Shown piece after piece: positions 2,740 to 27,111 of a stretch of 34,740 nt of DNA. The stretch lies in contig JANWHA010000119.1 in the NCBI GenBank assembly GCA_025450635.1, positions 1 to 34,740 of the forward strand, read 5' to 3'. The notes beneath the pieces were generated by a model, which had not been told where the DNA came from, did not search any database, and saw nothing but the letters and a program-made list of their open reading frames with translations. The first letter of the stretch is position 1; every line of letters starts with the position of its first letter. The translations under genes were made by a program, and so were the position numbers. This DNA comes from Croceibacterium sp. (GTDB lineage Bacteria > Pseudomonadota > Alphaproteobacteria > Sphingomonadales > Sphingomonadaceae).

Positions 2740-3927
2740 ATGGACAAACGCTGGATGCAACGCGCGCCTCACGGTGACCAACCCGCCGACCAGCGGCCCG
2801 CGGTGGTCATCTACCGGGCCCCGCTGTTCAATCCTTCCGAAACGTTCGTCCGCGCCCACGGACCGGCGCTGAAGCGGTACCGGCCTCTGCTCGCGGGACT
2901 GGAGGATAAGGGTAACATTGAGCCCGCACTGGCCTTCCTCCCTCGGAACCGTGGCGAGCGTCTTCGCGCGCGACTGGGCAACCTCGATTGGCTTGCCGAG
3001 CGCCTGAGGCCGGAGCAACCGCGGCTCATCCATGCCCATTTTGGCCCCGACGGGCTTGCGGCCCTCGACCTCGCCCAACGGCTGCGCATCCCCCTGGTGA
3101 CCACGCTGCACGGATACGACGTCTCGCGAACCAGGGCCGCCTTGCTCCTGTCAGGAAAGCTGTCCTGGATGCGCTATGCGCTCGGCCGCGAAAGGCTGGC
3201 TCGCCACGGCGATCTGTTTCTGGCCGTGTCGGAGGCGCTGCGCTCGATGGCCATCCGGGCCGGCTATCCCGCCGATCGGACGATGACGCACTATATCGGC
3301 GCCGACCTGAAAGCCTTTCCCGCCAGCGATGGCGATGACGGGGAAACAATCCTTCACGTCGGGCGGCTCGTCGAAAAGAAGGGCACTGCTTTGCTGCTCG
3401 CAGCCTTCGAGCGGTTGAAGGCGGTGCATCCCGCCGCGACGCTGGTGATTATCGGCGATGGGCCGCTTCGCCCGTTGCTCGAACGTCGAGCGATGCAATT
3501 GGGCCTCGCGGAAGGGGTTCGCTTCATGGGTTCCCAGCCCGCGCGCGTGGTCGCGGAATGGATGCGCCGGTCTGCCGTGCTCGCGGTCCCGAGCCTGACG
3601 GCGCGCGATGGCGACGCCGAAGGGTTGCCGACGGTGATTCCAGAGGCGGCGGCCTCGGGCCTCGCCGTCGTCGGTTCGGATCACAGCGGTATCCCGGAGG
3701 CGATCATCGACGGGCGCAGCGGGTTCGTGGTGCCCGAAGGCCAGGTCGAAGCCTTGTCCGCTCGGCTGATCGAGCTCATGCGGTCGCCGGACCTGCGCCG
3801 TTCGATGGGCGCCGCCGCGCGCGAACTCGCGGAGACGCGATTCGATCGGGAGGCGCAAGCCGAGAGGCTCGAGCGCCTCTACGATGCTGTGTCGGACAGC
3901 ACACCGTTGACGGCAAGCGAGCTTTAA
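2740..3927 (+). CDS. Glycosyltransferase family 4 (first of pair)
   Basis: A 395-residue GT-B fold enzyme of the GT4 type, which adds a sugar from a nucleotide-sugar donor with retention of configuration. The N-terminal acceptor half shows the HAHFGPDG and LVTTLHGYDV signatures of colanic-acid WcaL-like transferases. The C-terminal donor half shows ILHVGRLVEKKG at about residue 205 and the E-x7-E motif in the block GLPTVIPEAAASGLAVVGSD followed by HSGIPEAI. The first 20 residues are not conserved in style, so a later start (ATG at 2755) is possible; no good ribosome site distinguishes them. It is followed after three bases by a second GT4 gene, so the two are very likely cotranscribed. Donor and acceptor cannot be read from sequence. 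Confidence 0.85.
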   Translation: MDKRWMQRAPHGDQPADQRPAVVIYRAPLFNPSETFVRAHGPALKRYRPLLAGLEDKGNIEPALAFLPRNRGERLRARLGNLDWLAERLRPEQPRLIHAHFGPDGLAALDLAQRLRIPLVTTLHGYDVSRTRAALLLSGKLSWMRYALGRERLARHGDLFLAVSEALRSMAIRAGYPADRTMTHYIGADLKAFPASDGDDGETILHVGRLVEKKGTALLLAAFERLKAVHPAATLVIIGDGPLRPLLERRAMQLGLAEGVRFMGSQPARVVAEWMRRSAVLAVPSLTARDGDAEGLPTVIPEAAASGLAVVGSDHSGIPEAIIDGRSGFVVPEGQVEALSARLIELMRSPDLRRSMGAAARELAETRFDREAQAERLERLYDAVSDSTPLTASEL

Positions 3928-10597: not shown

Positions 10598-10613
10598 GGA
10601 GGTCCCCCTCCAC

Positions 10614-10703
10614 CGTCCGCCCTGAGCTTGTCGAAGGGCAGTTTTTCCTTTCAGCGCCGCACTCGAAGAAAAGAGCGGTCCTTCGACAAGCTCAGGACGG
10701 ACG
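10614..10703. repeat. Palindromic repeat element upstream of uppS
   Basis: The two 25-base arms (10614-10638 and 10679-10703) are inverted copies matching at 23 of 25 positions, with a 40-base interior. The arm core CCTGAGCTTGTCGAAGG resembles a dispersed intergenic repeat that I recall from sphingomonad genomes. It sits between frr and uppS inside an operon and ends only 12 bases before the uppS ATG, so it can fold in the mRNA and may influence uppS translation. Confidence 0.85.
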
Positions 10704-10715
10704 GGTTTCTTGACC

Positions 10716-11427: not shown

Positions 11428-11572
11428 CGTCACCCTGAACTTGTTTCAGGGTCCATTTCTCGACCGTCTCGGACGTGGCGCTGGCGCACCGAAGCTATCG
11501 GCAAGGGCGTGTCAGGCGCGCAGGCTTCAGGATTCGCGGCACGATGGACCCTGAAACAAGTTCAGGGTGACG
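11428..11572. repeat. Palindromic repeat element between uppS and cdsA
   Basis: Two perfect 29-base inverted arms (11428-11456 and 11544-11572) enclose an 87-base interior. The arm core CCCTGAACTTGTTTCAGGG is itself partly palindromic and differs from the element before uppS. It looks like another dispersed sphingomonad intergenic repeat. The right arm ends about 16 bases before the cdsA ATG, so the hairpin abuts the ribosome site (AAAGGGA). Confidence 0.9.
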
Positions 11573-24917: not shown

Positions 24918-25837
24918 CACGCCACCCCCGCGATCACCCGCGCGACCAGATCGGGATCGAACGGGCGCAAGTCGTCGATTTTCTCGCCGACGCCGATCGC
25001 GTGGATCGGCAGGCCGTACTGCTCGGCCGCGGCCACCAGCACGCCGCCGCGGGCGGTCCCGTCGAGCTTGGTCATGATTAGCCCGGTCACGCCGGCCACC
25101 TCCTTGAAGACATCGATCTGGGAAAGCGCGTTCTGGCCGTTGGTGGCATCGAGCACCAGCACAACGTCGTGCGGCGCCTCCGGGTTGAGGCGGCCGAGCA
25201 CGCGGCGGATCTTGGCCAGCTCGTCCATCAGCTCGCGCTTGTTCTGCAGCCGCCCGGCGGTGTCGACGATCAGCGCGTCGATGCCGGTGGCGGTCGCCTG
25301 CTTGACCGCGTCGAACACGACGCTCGCCGGATCGCCGCCTTCCGGCCCCGTGACTACGGCCACGCCGATGCGCTCGGCCCACACCTTGAGCTGGCCGATG
25401 GCGGCAGCCCGGAAGGTGTCGCCGGCGGCGAGCAAGACGCCGTAATCCTGTTCCTGGAACAAGTGCGCCAGCTTGGCGATGGTGGTCGTCTTGCCGCTGC
25501 CGTTGACCCCGATCACCAGGATCACTTGCGGGCGCGGGAAGGCGACGATCTCGAGTGGTTTGGCGACCGGCCGCAGGATCGCGGCGATCTCCTCGGCGAC
25601 CGCTTCCTTGAGCTCGCGCTCGGTCATCGTCAGGCCGAAGCGCTTCTCCGCCAGCCGGTCGCAGATGCGCGAGGCGGCGCTCGGGCCGAGGTCGGAGAGG
25701 ACCAGCGCATCCTCGACGTCATCGAGCGTGGCCTGGTCGAGCCGGGCGGTGGAGACCACGGCGAGGTTCTCCGCCAGCCGTTCGGACGTCTTGCGGAAGC
25801 CGCCGAACAGGCGCTCGCGCCAGGTCGGATCGCTCAC
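24917..25837 (-). CDS. ftsY: Signal recognition particle receptor FtsY
   Basis: A 306-residue SRP-family GTPase that docks SRP-ribosome complexes at the SecYEG translocon. The N domain occupies about residues 1-95. The G domain has the P-loop GVNGSGKTTT at 110-119, DTFRAAAIGQLKVWAER, DTAGRLQNKRELMDEL and TKLDGTARGG. The acidic A domain of E. coli FtsY is absent, as is common in alphaproteobacteria. Its start overlaps the mtaB stop by four bases. Confidence 0.97.
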   Translation of the reverse strand: MSDPTWRERLFGGFRKTSERLAENLAVVSTARLDQATLDDVEDALVLSDLGPSAASRICDRLAEKRFGLTMTERELKEAVAEEIAAILRPVAKPLEIVAFPRPQVILVIGVNGSGKTTTIAKLAHLFQEQDYGVLLAAGDTFRAAAIGQLKVWAERIGVAVVTGPEGGDPASVVFDAVKQATATGIDALIVDTAGRLQNKRELMDELAKIRRVLGRLNPEAPHDVVLVLDATNGQNALSQIDVFKEVAGVTGLIMTKLDGTARGGVLVAAAEQYGLPIHAIGVGEKIDDLRPFDPDLVARVIAGVA

Positions 25838-27111
25838 TGCAGCAATCCTTCCACGAGCTTCGTCGGGGTGATGGTCAGGATGGCCCCCGCGCCGGTTCCC
25901 TTCGGCACGGCTACGCGGGCGAAGCTCGCCGCATGGCCGGTGCCGTCATTTTCGGCGAGGACCGATTGCGGGGTTCCGACGAGCGTGCGCAGCCAGCCCT
26001 GGCGGACTTCGGCGGCCGTCTTGCGCAGCTCCGCCGCGCGGCGCTTGATCGTCGCCGTGTCGACCTGCGGCATGCGTGCGGCCGGGGTGCGCGGGCGCGG
26101 GGAATAGGGAAAGACGTGGCCGTGCACGATGCCGAGCTCGCGGACGATCCTCAGGTTGGCCCGGTGCATCGCCTCGTCCTCGGTCGGGAAGCCGGCGATG
26201 AGGTCCGCGCCGACGGTGATGTCGGGGCGACGGGCGCGCAGGCGCTGCACCAGCGAAATCGCGTCGGCCCTCAAGTGCCGGCGCTTCATGCGCTTGAGGA
26301 TCAGGTCGTCGCCGTGCTGTAGCGACAGGTGCAGGTGCGGCATCAGGCGGGGCTCGCCGGCGAACAATTCGAACAGCGCGGCATCCACCTCGATCCCGTC
26401 GAGCGAGGACATGCGCAGGCGCGTAAGGCGGGGAAAGGCATCGAGGATCGCGCGGACAAGCGCGCCCAGGCGGGGGTGGTTCGGAAGATCGTGGCCCCAG
26501 CTGGTCACGTCGACGCCCGTCAGCACCACTTCCTGCGCGCCTTGCCCCAAATGAAGCTCGACCTCGCGCAGCACGTCCGCGACCGACAGCGACCTGCTCG
26601 GCCCGCGGCCTTGCGGGATCACGCAGAAGGTGCAGGCGTGATCGCAGCCGTTCTGCACCGCGACGAAGGCGCGCGTGTGGGACACAGTTCCCCTCCCGCT
26701 TGCGGGAGGGGTTAGGGGAGGGTGAGTGTGATCAGGCGCAGCATTGGCGGCGACTGACCCTCCCCCGACCGCTCCCGCAAGCGGGAGGGGGGAAGAATTG
26801 CCGTGATCCTTCGCCTCGCGCCACACCCGCGCGTCGAGCTTGGCCGCGTTCGGCACCAGCCCGTCGATCTCCGGCATCGCCGCCAACTGGTCGCGCTCGA
26901 TCTCGGTCGCGCAGCCGGTGACCAGCAGCCGCGCGTCCGGCCGGGCCCGCCGCGCCTTGCGGATCGCCTGGCGAGTTTGGCGCACGGCTTCGGCGGTGAC
27001 CGCGCAGCTGTTGATCACCACTACGTCGGCGGTCGCGCCCAGCAGCGCGCGGATGCGTTCGCTTTCGGCGATGTTGAGCCGGCAGCCGAGCGAGATCACT
27101 TCCGCGTTCAA
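25834..27111 (-). CDS. mtaB: tRNA t6A37 methylthiotransferase MtaB with in-frame repeat insertion
   Basis: A 425-residue radical-SAM methylthiotransferase that converts t6A37 to ms2t6A37 in tRNAs reading ANN codons. The N-terminal UPF0004 domain keeps its three cluster cysteines (Cys10, Cys36, Cys67). The radical-SAM motif CDHACTFC has Cys156, Cys160 and Cys163, then IPQGRGPSRS, and a TRAM-like C-terminus. Between them, at about residues 104-142, lies a Pro/Gly-rich segment (SPLPLAGAVGGG...HPPLTPPASGRG) encoded by a palindromic repeat element at 26690-26790. The frame is kept through it, so the gene appears functional with an extra linker between the two domains. It overlaps dapF by four bases. 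Confidence 0.93.
   Translation of the reverse strand: MNAEVISLGCRLNIAESERIRALLGATADVVVINSCAVTAEAVRQTRQAIRKARRARPDARLLVTGCATEIERDQLAAMPEIDGLVPNAAKLDARVWREAKDHGNSSPLPLAGAVGGGSVAANAAPDHTHPPLTPPASGRGTVSHTRAFVAVQNGCDHACTFCVIPQGRGPSRSLSVADVLREVELHLGQGAQEVVLTGVDVTSWGHDLPNHPRLGALVRAILDAFPRLTRLRMSSLDGIEVDAALFELFAGEPRLMPHLHLSLQHGDDLILKRMKRRHLRADAISLVQRLRARRPDITVGADLIAGFPTEDEAMHRANLRIVRELGIVHGHVFPYSPRPRTPAARMPQVDTATIKRRAAELRKTAAEVRQGWLRTLVGTPQSVLAENDGTGHAASFARVAVPKGTGAGAILTITPTKLVEGLLQ
26690..26790. repeat. Palindromic repeat element inside mtaB, translated in frame
   Basis: The left half starts with a perfect hairpin: CCCCTCCCGC (26690-26699), TT, GCGGGAGGGG (26702-26711). The right half has CTCCCGC (26772-26778), AA, GCGGGAG (26781-26787). 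The halves are inverted copies of each other over 35 bases (26691-26725 and 26755-26789) with four mismatches. The element is open in the mtaB frame and encodes most of a linker of about 39 residues. It resembles dispersed sphingomonad repeats that read CTCCCGCTTGCGGGAG, which I recall as normally intergenic. Confidence 0.9.

Follow-up and report, generated by a model that had tools for sequence, protein, structure and literature searches.

A REPIN-like palindromic repeat lies in frame in the interdomain linker of mtaB and inside other enzyme genes of Sphingomonadaceae

Several kinds of palindromic repeat are known from bacterial genomes, and some of them are found inside genes. The Rickettsia palindromic elements (RPE) are about 150 bp long, and nearly half of them are inserted into open reading frames (Ogata et al. 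2000, 2002, as summarized in PMC10969869). A second class, the REPINs, consists of two inverted REPs and a spacer that together form one hairpin. REPINs occur many times per genome; the main text of Bertels and Rainey (2011, PMC3116915) analyses them in extragenic space and ties them to RAYT genes. The GTAG and CGTC REPs are often dimers located between tandem or convergent genes (Di Nocera et al. 2013, PMC3733652). According to the main text of the same paper, intragenic REPs are known in alphaproteobacteria: genic GTAG/CGTC REPs include copies in uvrA, dnaE2 and tRNA synthetase genes, also in S. alaskensis, and such insertions may be neutral when they fall in linkers or loops. The CGTC repeats are described there as having no dedicated transposase, and in two Xanthomonas recB is reported to carry different REPs at nearly the same position (PMC3733652).

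The DNA analysed here, which we call the window, is a stretch of 34,740 nucleotides from Croceibacterium sp. It is contig C119 of a draft assembly that is 74% complete and comprises 2.31 Mb in 141 contigs. The window carries mtaB, the gene for the tRNA t6A37 methylthiotransferase, on the minus strand at 25834..27111 (425 amino acids including the insert). The original prediction, made from the letters of the window, held that an element of roughly 100 bases made of two hairpins lies within this gene. What we find at 26690..26790 is a REPIN-like palindrome dimer of 101 bp, whose in-frame reading is SPLPLAGAVGGGS...HPPLTPPASGRG. It begins with a 22-bp palindrome (CCCCTCCCGCTTGCGGGAGGGG, 26690..26711), followed by the G-rich inner part of the first arm (26712..26727), a spacer that varies among the listed copies (26728..26752), the C-rich inner part of the second arm (26753..26768) and a second palindrome, the inverted copy (26769..26790). 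The inverted repeat (26690-26727 and 26753-26790) has 38-nt arms that are 89% complementary and 25 nt apart, close enough to the 31 of 35 positions counted at first. Describing it as two hairpins inverted to each other is correct, because each arm holds a 22-bp palindrome (one of them with an edge mismatch). Folded in the mRNA sense, the element reaches -81.2 kcal/mol, compared with -44.0 ± 3.6 kcal/mol for dinucleotide shuffles (z = -10.5), and 0 of 200 shuffles match its RNA fold. Folded as DNA, it gives z = -9.0.

The mtaB reading frame, 25834-27111 on the minus strand, passes through the whole of 26690-26790 without a stop, as had been claimed. Its product passes the NCBIfam MtaB equivalog TIGR01579 despite the insert, at 364.4 bits against a cut-off of 357.05. 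The UPF0004 domain matches residues 5-83 (26863..27099, minus strand) and the Radical_SAM domain residues 152-314 (26170..26658, minus strand); sequence and alignment place the radical-SAM CxxxCxxC motif, C156/C160/C163, at 26623..26646 on the minus strand. Because the insert covers approximately residues 107-141, it falls between these domains, and its predicted site between UPF0004 and the CxxxCxxC motif is borne out. Six cysteines, C10, C36, C67, C156, C160 and C163, are invariant in 38 of 38 aligned MtaB sequences (37 of these were picked from 80 named loci). We take them to be the cluster ligands, all of which are retained, as expected.

How much has the insert added to the protein? The linker, measured from KLDARVW to HTRAFVAVQ, is 63 residues long in the window's MtaB versus 28-29 in four congeners (G001-G004). 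We compared 85 linkers: that of the window, those of the 80 best named MtaB relatives, which are mostly Sphingomonadales (Novosphingobium, Erythrobacter, Qipengyuania and others), and those of the four congeners. The linker is 28-34 residues long in 79 of the 85 aligned rows, which gives the gap at the insert point that the insertion reading calls for; the others measure 38, 40, 46, 46, 51 and 63. The insert had been said to add about 39 Pro/Gly-rich residues. Its composition is as described (Pro/Gly/Ala-rich), but the size was overestimated, the net gain over the four congeners being 34-35 residues. The linkers of 40 and 38 residues belong to loci L367 and L366, and a fold test of the L367 linker gives no palindrome signal (z = -0.4). 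An AlphaFold2 model based on a 38-sequence alignment has a mean pLDDT of 83.2 and a pTM of 0.82; the segments with pLDDT below 50 are residues 106-108 and 110-141. In this model the enzyme folds with confidence, and the mtaB insert is predicted to form a disordered linker.

The same repeat is found at 41 places in the window's own genome (G000), two of them adjacent, as sorted by hand from the 100 similarity matches listed. An exact 14-mer search adds at least one further copy, on contig C73. The 14-mer core occurs 47 times in this genome (reversed control, 0), and a 16-mer core has 43 exact occurrences. Among sampled genomes of Sphingomonadaceae, the 16-mer core is present in 67 of 149, representing 52 of 96 genera (control, 0), and the copy number of the repeat is patchy, ranging from 0 to 51 per genome. 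We collected 201 elements from eight genomes, of which 108 are doublets of 75-140 bp; like REPINs, these are multi-copy inverted doublets, and the window's copy shows the strong hairpin fold given above. Pooling the 216 arms of these 108 doublets yields the consensus unit CCCCTCCCGC-TT-GCGGGAGGGG, followed by about three variable bases and GGGGwGGG, arranged as an inverted doublet.

How does this family compare with those already described? It resembles RPE in being palindromic, repeated and located in frame in unrelated protein genes (PMC10969869). It differs in that the elements are about 100 bp long, 10 of 201 sampled copies are internal to genes and the hosts are GC-rich Sphingomonadales. 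The likeness to RPE proposed at the outset is apt in the sense of 'works like', as a likeness of behaviour. With REPINs the repeat shares the inverted doublet with a spacer, the hairpin and the many copies per genome (PMC3116915), but no RAYT locus carrying it was found in its own genome or at the 20 loci inspected. CGTC REPs are defined by an unpaired CGTC/TGTC end tag, an 8-9 bp stem starting with A/T pairs and a 4-5 nt loop (PMC3733652), whereas the present repeat has a longer, 10-bp stem, CCCCTCCCGC, and a 2-nt loop. Neither tag marks the family: in the stretches about 8 nt outside and 15 nt inside the palindrome, GTAG is found in 8 of 216 arms and CGTC or TGTC in 11 of 216. The CCTC variant of the CGTC tag lies inside the paired stem here and is left out of this count; a weak 'tgtc' consensus appears further inward, after GGGGwGGG. 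The repeat is not met in the passages of Di Nocera et al. (2013, PMC3733652) that we consulted, and our searches of the open-access literature on REPs, REPINs, in-frame palindromes and same-site insertions listed no description of the family or of its peptides. In-frame genic repeats are already known from RPE and from the GTAG/CGTC REPs; the present repeat adds another family.

A search for the Y1 transposase (PF01797) gives no match in the window's genome (74% complete) and 28 matches in 24 of the 149 sampled genomes. At the 20 loci examined among these 28 matches, no palindrome lies within up to 1.5 kb of the transposase. The transposase is present in 14 of 32 genomes with at least five core copies versus 10 of 117 with fewer, an association with a Fisher p of 1.4e-5, uncorrected for relatedness. 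Five of the eight genomes with at least 30 core copies have no Y1 transposase. These searches do not demonstrate a RAYT-driven mechanism.

We classed the 201 elements with a codon model pooled from two genomes (G000 and G106). Ten are internal to coding stretches, 24 convergent, 5 divergent and 78 between tandem coding stretches; for 84, one side is not clearly coding. The genome-wide search thus finds what had been anticipated, a repeat scattered through the genome and, by codon sorting, mostly outside genes. All 10 internal elements have the same frame on both sides and are free of stops. In the window's genome they lie in mtaB, valS, mutS and a methyltransferase gene; in G084, in carA and ileS; in G106, in a biotin-carboxylase gene (propionyl/acetyl-CoA carboxylase type), the gene of an ABC-F ATPase near Uup, and uvrA; and in G149, in dnaE2. 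The pooled model places no internal copy in G004, G035, G094 or G114.

Codon scores served only to sort the elements; what places a copy inside a gene is a family match, joined by an alignment for the four genes of the window's genome. In ValS, MutS, UvrA, DnaE2, CarA and IleS, a single continuous NCBIfam match that exceeds its cut-off spans the insert. The Pfam match Biotin_carb_C (352-487) spans the insert of the biotin carboxylase (375-408). The biotin carboxylase and the ABC-F protein are below the NCBIfam equivalog cut-offs shown, and the ABC-F protein has a second, more decayed insert that begins 242 residues past the first. The methyltransferase bears a tentative name because its family matches are weak (the best reaches 40.8 bits, far under the equivalog cut-off, and Pfam is just under cut-off); its orthologues in the congeners are 77-87% identical over the matched parts. 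An earlier sort with per-genome codon models had given 11 in-frame cases and was replaced, since the models for G004 and G084 were mistrained on the antisense strand. L151, the plus strand of L168, and L169, which have no match in either family library, came from these models; the pooled model dropped all three and added CarA (L158) and IleS (L168, minus strand). As with RPE, then, in-frame palindromes occur in 10 genes, and this repeat is absent from the orthologues compared, those of the four genes in the window's genome. The idea that a normally intergenic repeat can supply protein linkers is strengthened by these further copies in other genes, which would be translated in frame.

The inserted peptides use several frames of the repeat (SPLPLAGG, SRLREG, TPPASGRG, PSRKREG and PLPQAGG). 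Is the element built for translation? It has 3.65 of 6 frames open, versus 3.61 in dinucleotide-matched shuffles. Because it is no more stop-poor than shuffled sequence, we see no sign of such a design and reject the idea that it is tuned for translation; translation of the repeat looks incidental. Element length modulo 3 was also considered as frame evidence and is uninformative, the boundaries being arbitrary.

We then asked whether the repeat breaks genes. Judged by stop positions and, for 10 cases, by Pfam scans, no split gene was seen among the 78 same-strand tandem copies. A stop occurs in a flank or in the element in 57 of the 78, and in every one of these 57 the upstream frame ends before or at the element start. 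The upstream frame ends there in 11 of the remaining 21 as well. The last 10 have different Pfam families on each side (8) or a family match on one side only (2). Conditional on the codon sort and with 84 places unclassed, the tally is 10 in-frame internal copies, with no out-of-frame copy seen.

These counts bear on a different reading, in which the ribosome skips the hairpin and the insert is absent from the protein. Programmed bypassing of this kind is known from phage T4 gene 60 and the yeast mitochondrial byp elements, and the mRNA hairpin here, at -81 kcal/mol, is very stable. Bypassing, however, needs neither a kept frame nor open reading, yet the 10 internal copies are in frame and free of stops. 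No tandem copy among the 78 had the look of a split gene, and the inserts use several repeat frames, so that no fixed pair of take-off and landing sites is seen. We consider bypassing very improbable.

The reading we prefer, to which we assign a probability of roughly 0.87, is that the mtaB unit is a REPIN-like dimer, probably mobile, that was inserted in frame in an interdomain linker, is read through and is tolerated, with selection sorting the copies. In this model, a non-autonomous palindromic unit moves, and many of its copies settle between genes. One copy would have entered mtaB in the linker between its two domains, in a phase that preserves the reading frame and brings in no stop. The ribosome would read through it, adding about 34 Pro/Gly/Ala-rich residues that are unstructured and tolerated. 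Genic copies would survive only if they are in frame, stop-free and in a loop or linker; copies out of frame or in folded parts would be removed by selection. Because selection would remove the others, surviving intragenic copies would mark permissive sites. Movement by transposition, translation, retained enzyme activity and sorting by selection are steps that we infer from sequence.

A more mundane explanation is that the repeat was misjoined in assembly. The genome is a 74%-complete draft in 141 contigs, and the repeat occupies about 40 places in it. At four loci, nevertheless, the two flanks are parts of one gene and agree in frame, and the pattern recurs in other genes of the more complete genomes G084, G106 and G149. 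An artefact is hardly credible.

The nearest empty sites are in relatives at the genus level only. In all four congeners, mtaB and mutS are short and without the repeat. The repeat is absent from valS in all four as well: G003 joins residues 435 and 467 directly, and other extra residues occupy the site in G001 (21) and G004 (about a dozen). The methyltransferase is short in G002 and G003 and carries other inserts in G001 and G004. By eye, the G001 inserts in the methyltransferase and valS look like decayed or single palindromes (z = -1.8 and -0.3, respectively, for DNA folds against single-base shuffles). We also noted more lineage-specific inserts at L124 (G003 valS, ~248), L141 (G004 methyltransferase, ~303) and L122/L125 (valS, ~250). 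Some such inserts in valS and the methyltransferase resemble, as we read them, other repeat peptides (QPPFASSEVE..., LRQAQGNR).

An insertion in mtaB would be doubtful if relatives carried an equally long, non-homologous segment at the same point. Three of the 80 named relatives do have inserts there, but shorter ones (linkers of 46, 46 and 51 residues), and the insertion reading survives because these are palindrome dimers of another family, with a GCCTTCGC core. They occur in Novosphingobium sp. 28-62-57 (L354, z = -7.9), a Sphingomonadaceae MAG (L326, z = -7.1) and N. subterraneum (L360, z = -2.4, weaker than the others); these scores compare the DNA energy of each insert with 100 single-base shuffles, which is less strict than the control used for the window's copy. 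Exact copies of the GCCTTCGC core number 123, 12 and 12 in the genomes of L354, L326 and L360, including places inside their mtaB loci, against 1 in the window's genome. The mtaB linker, it follows, takes such elements more than once. The insert of G004 at the same point of the methyltransferase belongs to a third family, GTCCCGGACTTGATCCGGGAC (place G004:C9:339187). Counted at up to two mismatches, this family numbers 52 copies in G004 itself against 3 in the window's genome. The copy counts imply that the family that is multi-copy in a given genome supplies the insert. L354 and L360 both come from Novosphingobium, and a single insertion may account for the two, so the independent events in mtaB are perhaps three, not four. 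We estimate the chance of three independent events in one linker of about 12 residues at about 0.001 (even spread over about 390 residues), the first event being taken as given and independence assumed, not proved.

On balance we lean towards the view that in Sphingomonadaceae several palindrome families insert independently and in frame at the same few linkers (mtaB, the rRNA-methyltransferase-like gene and possibly valS), each insert coming from whichever family is abundant in that genome. Such reuse of a linker by different families extends the remark on recB printed in Di Nocera et al. (PMC3733652). If this view is true, these repeats are natural linker-scanning mutagens that lengthen linkers repeatedly, and genome sequences reveal where enzymes are permissive.

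That mtaB and the methyltransferase gene each hold different inserts in one short stretch might also reflect a DNA target preference of the inserting machinery instead of permissiveness of the protein. We judge this unlikely: among the 8 nt outside the element no base exceeds 45% in the 216 pooled arms (G035 alone has a partial consensus), and the families at a shared site differ in sequence. In the absence of a flanking consensus, permissiveness of the protein explains the reuse better. Slightly less likely again, in our opinion, is that the in-frame copies were selected because a linker is useful beyond being tolerated, for example in tuning MtaB or in tethering. The linkers of mtaB and the methyltransferase do hold inserts of different families in different genomes, but 79 of 85 MtaB linkers are short, the peptides vary in sequence and frame, the targets are unrelated enzymes and permissiveness alone accounts for the reuse.

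These results place a widespread repeat family inside conserved enzymes (ValS, IleS, CarA, UvrA and MutS) beyond Rickettsia. They offer an example, open to testing, of new protein segments arising from repeated DNA that is mostly non-coding, and the occurrence of different families in one linker makes it possible to distinguish tolerance from a preference in insertion. Those who build domain models or annotate genomes should be prepared for peptides such as SPLPLAGG..., TPPASGRG and PSRKREG in ordinary proteins. The insert sites are also natural points for engineered insertions.

The copies between tandem genes have features of their own. In 20 of the 21 tandem cases that remain beside the 57 above, the downstream frame offers an ATG, GTG or TTG between -14 and +42 nt relative to where the element ends; in the exception, L163, the start comes after a stop just beyond the element. 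Start codons are often a few nucleotides past the GGGAGGGG that ends the element, and this end might act like a Shine-Dalgarno sequence for the gene downstream. In 8 of the 21 (L065, L083, L158 at 3642-3668, L171, L184, L195, L207 and L255), the upstream frame stays open up to the element and terminates at it or just beyond; judging from the reading frames, the element would encode the C-terminal tail of the upstream gene. L065 and L255 are the same gene pair in two genera (Peripla_BP_2 before FecCD). At L089, L169 and L228 the repeat lies between the same gene pair, which we take to be hslV and hslU, in three genera (G000, G084 and G114), and this intergenic site is likewise shared or reused across the three.

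The window itself holds two further palindrome dimers of other sequence, at 10613-10704 and 11428-11572, bringing the palindrome types in it to three. They are of a CTTCGACAAGCTCAGGAC type and a CACCCTGAACTTGTTTCAGGGTCCAT type, the latter with 29-nt arms that are 100% complementary, and the open reading frames that flank them are presumably frr, uppS and cdsA.
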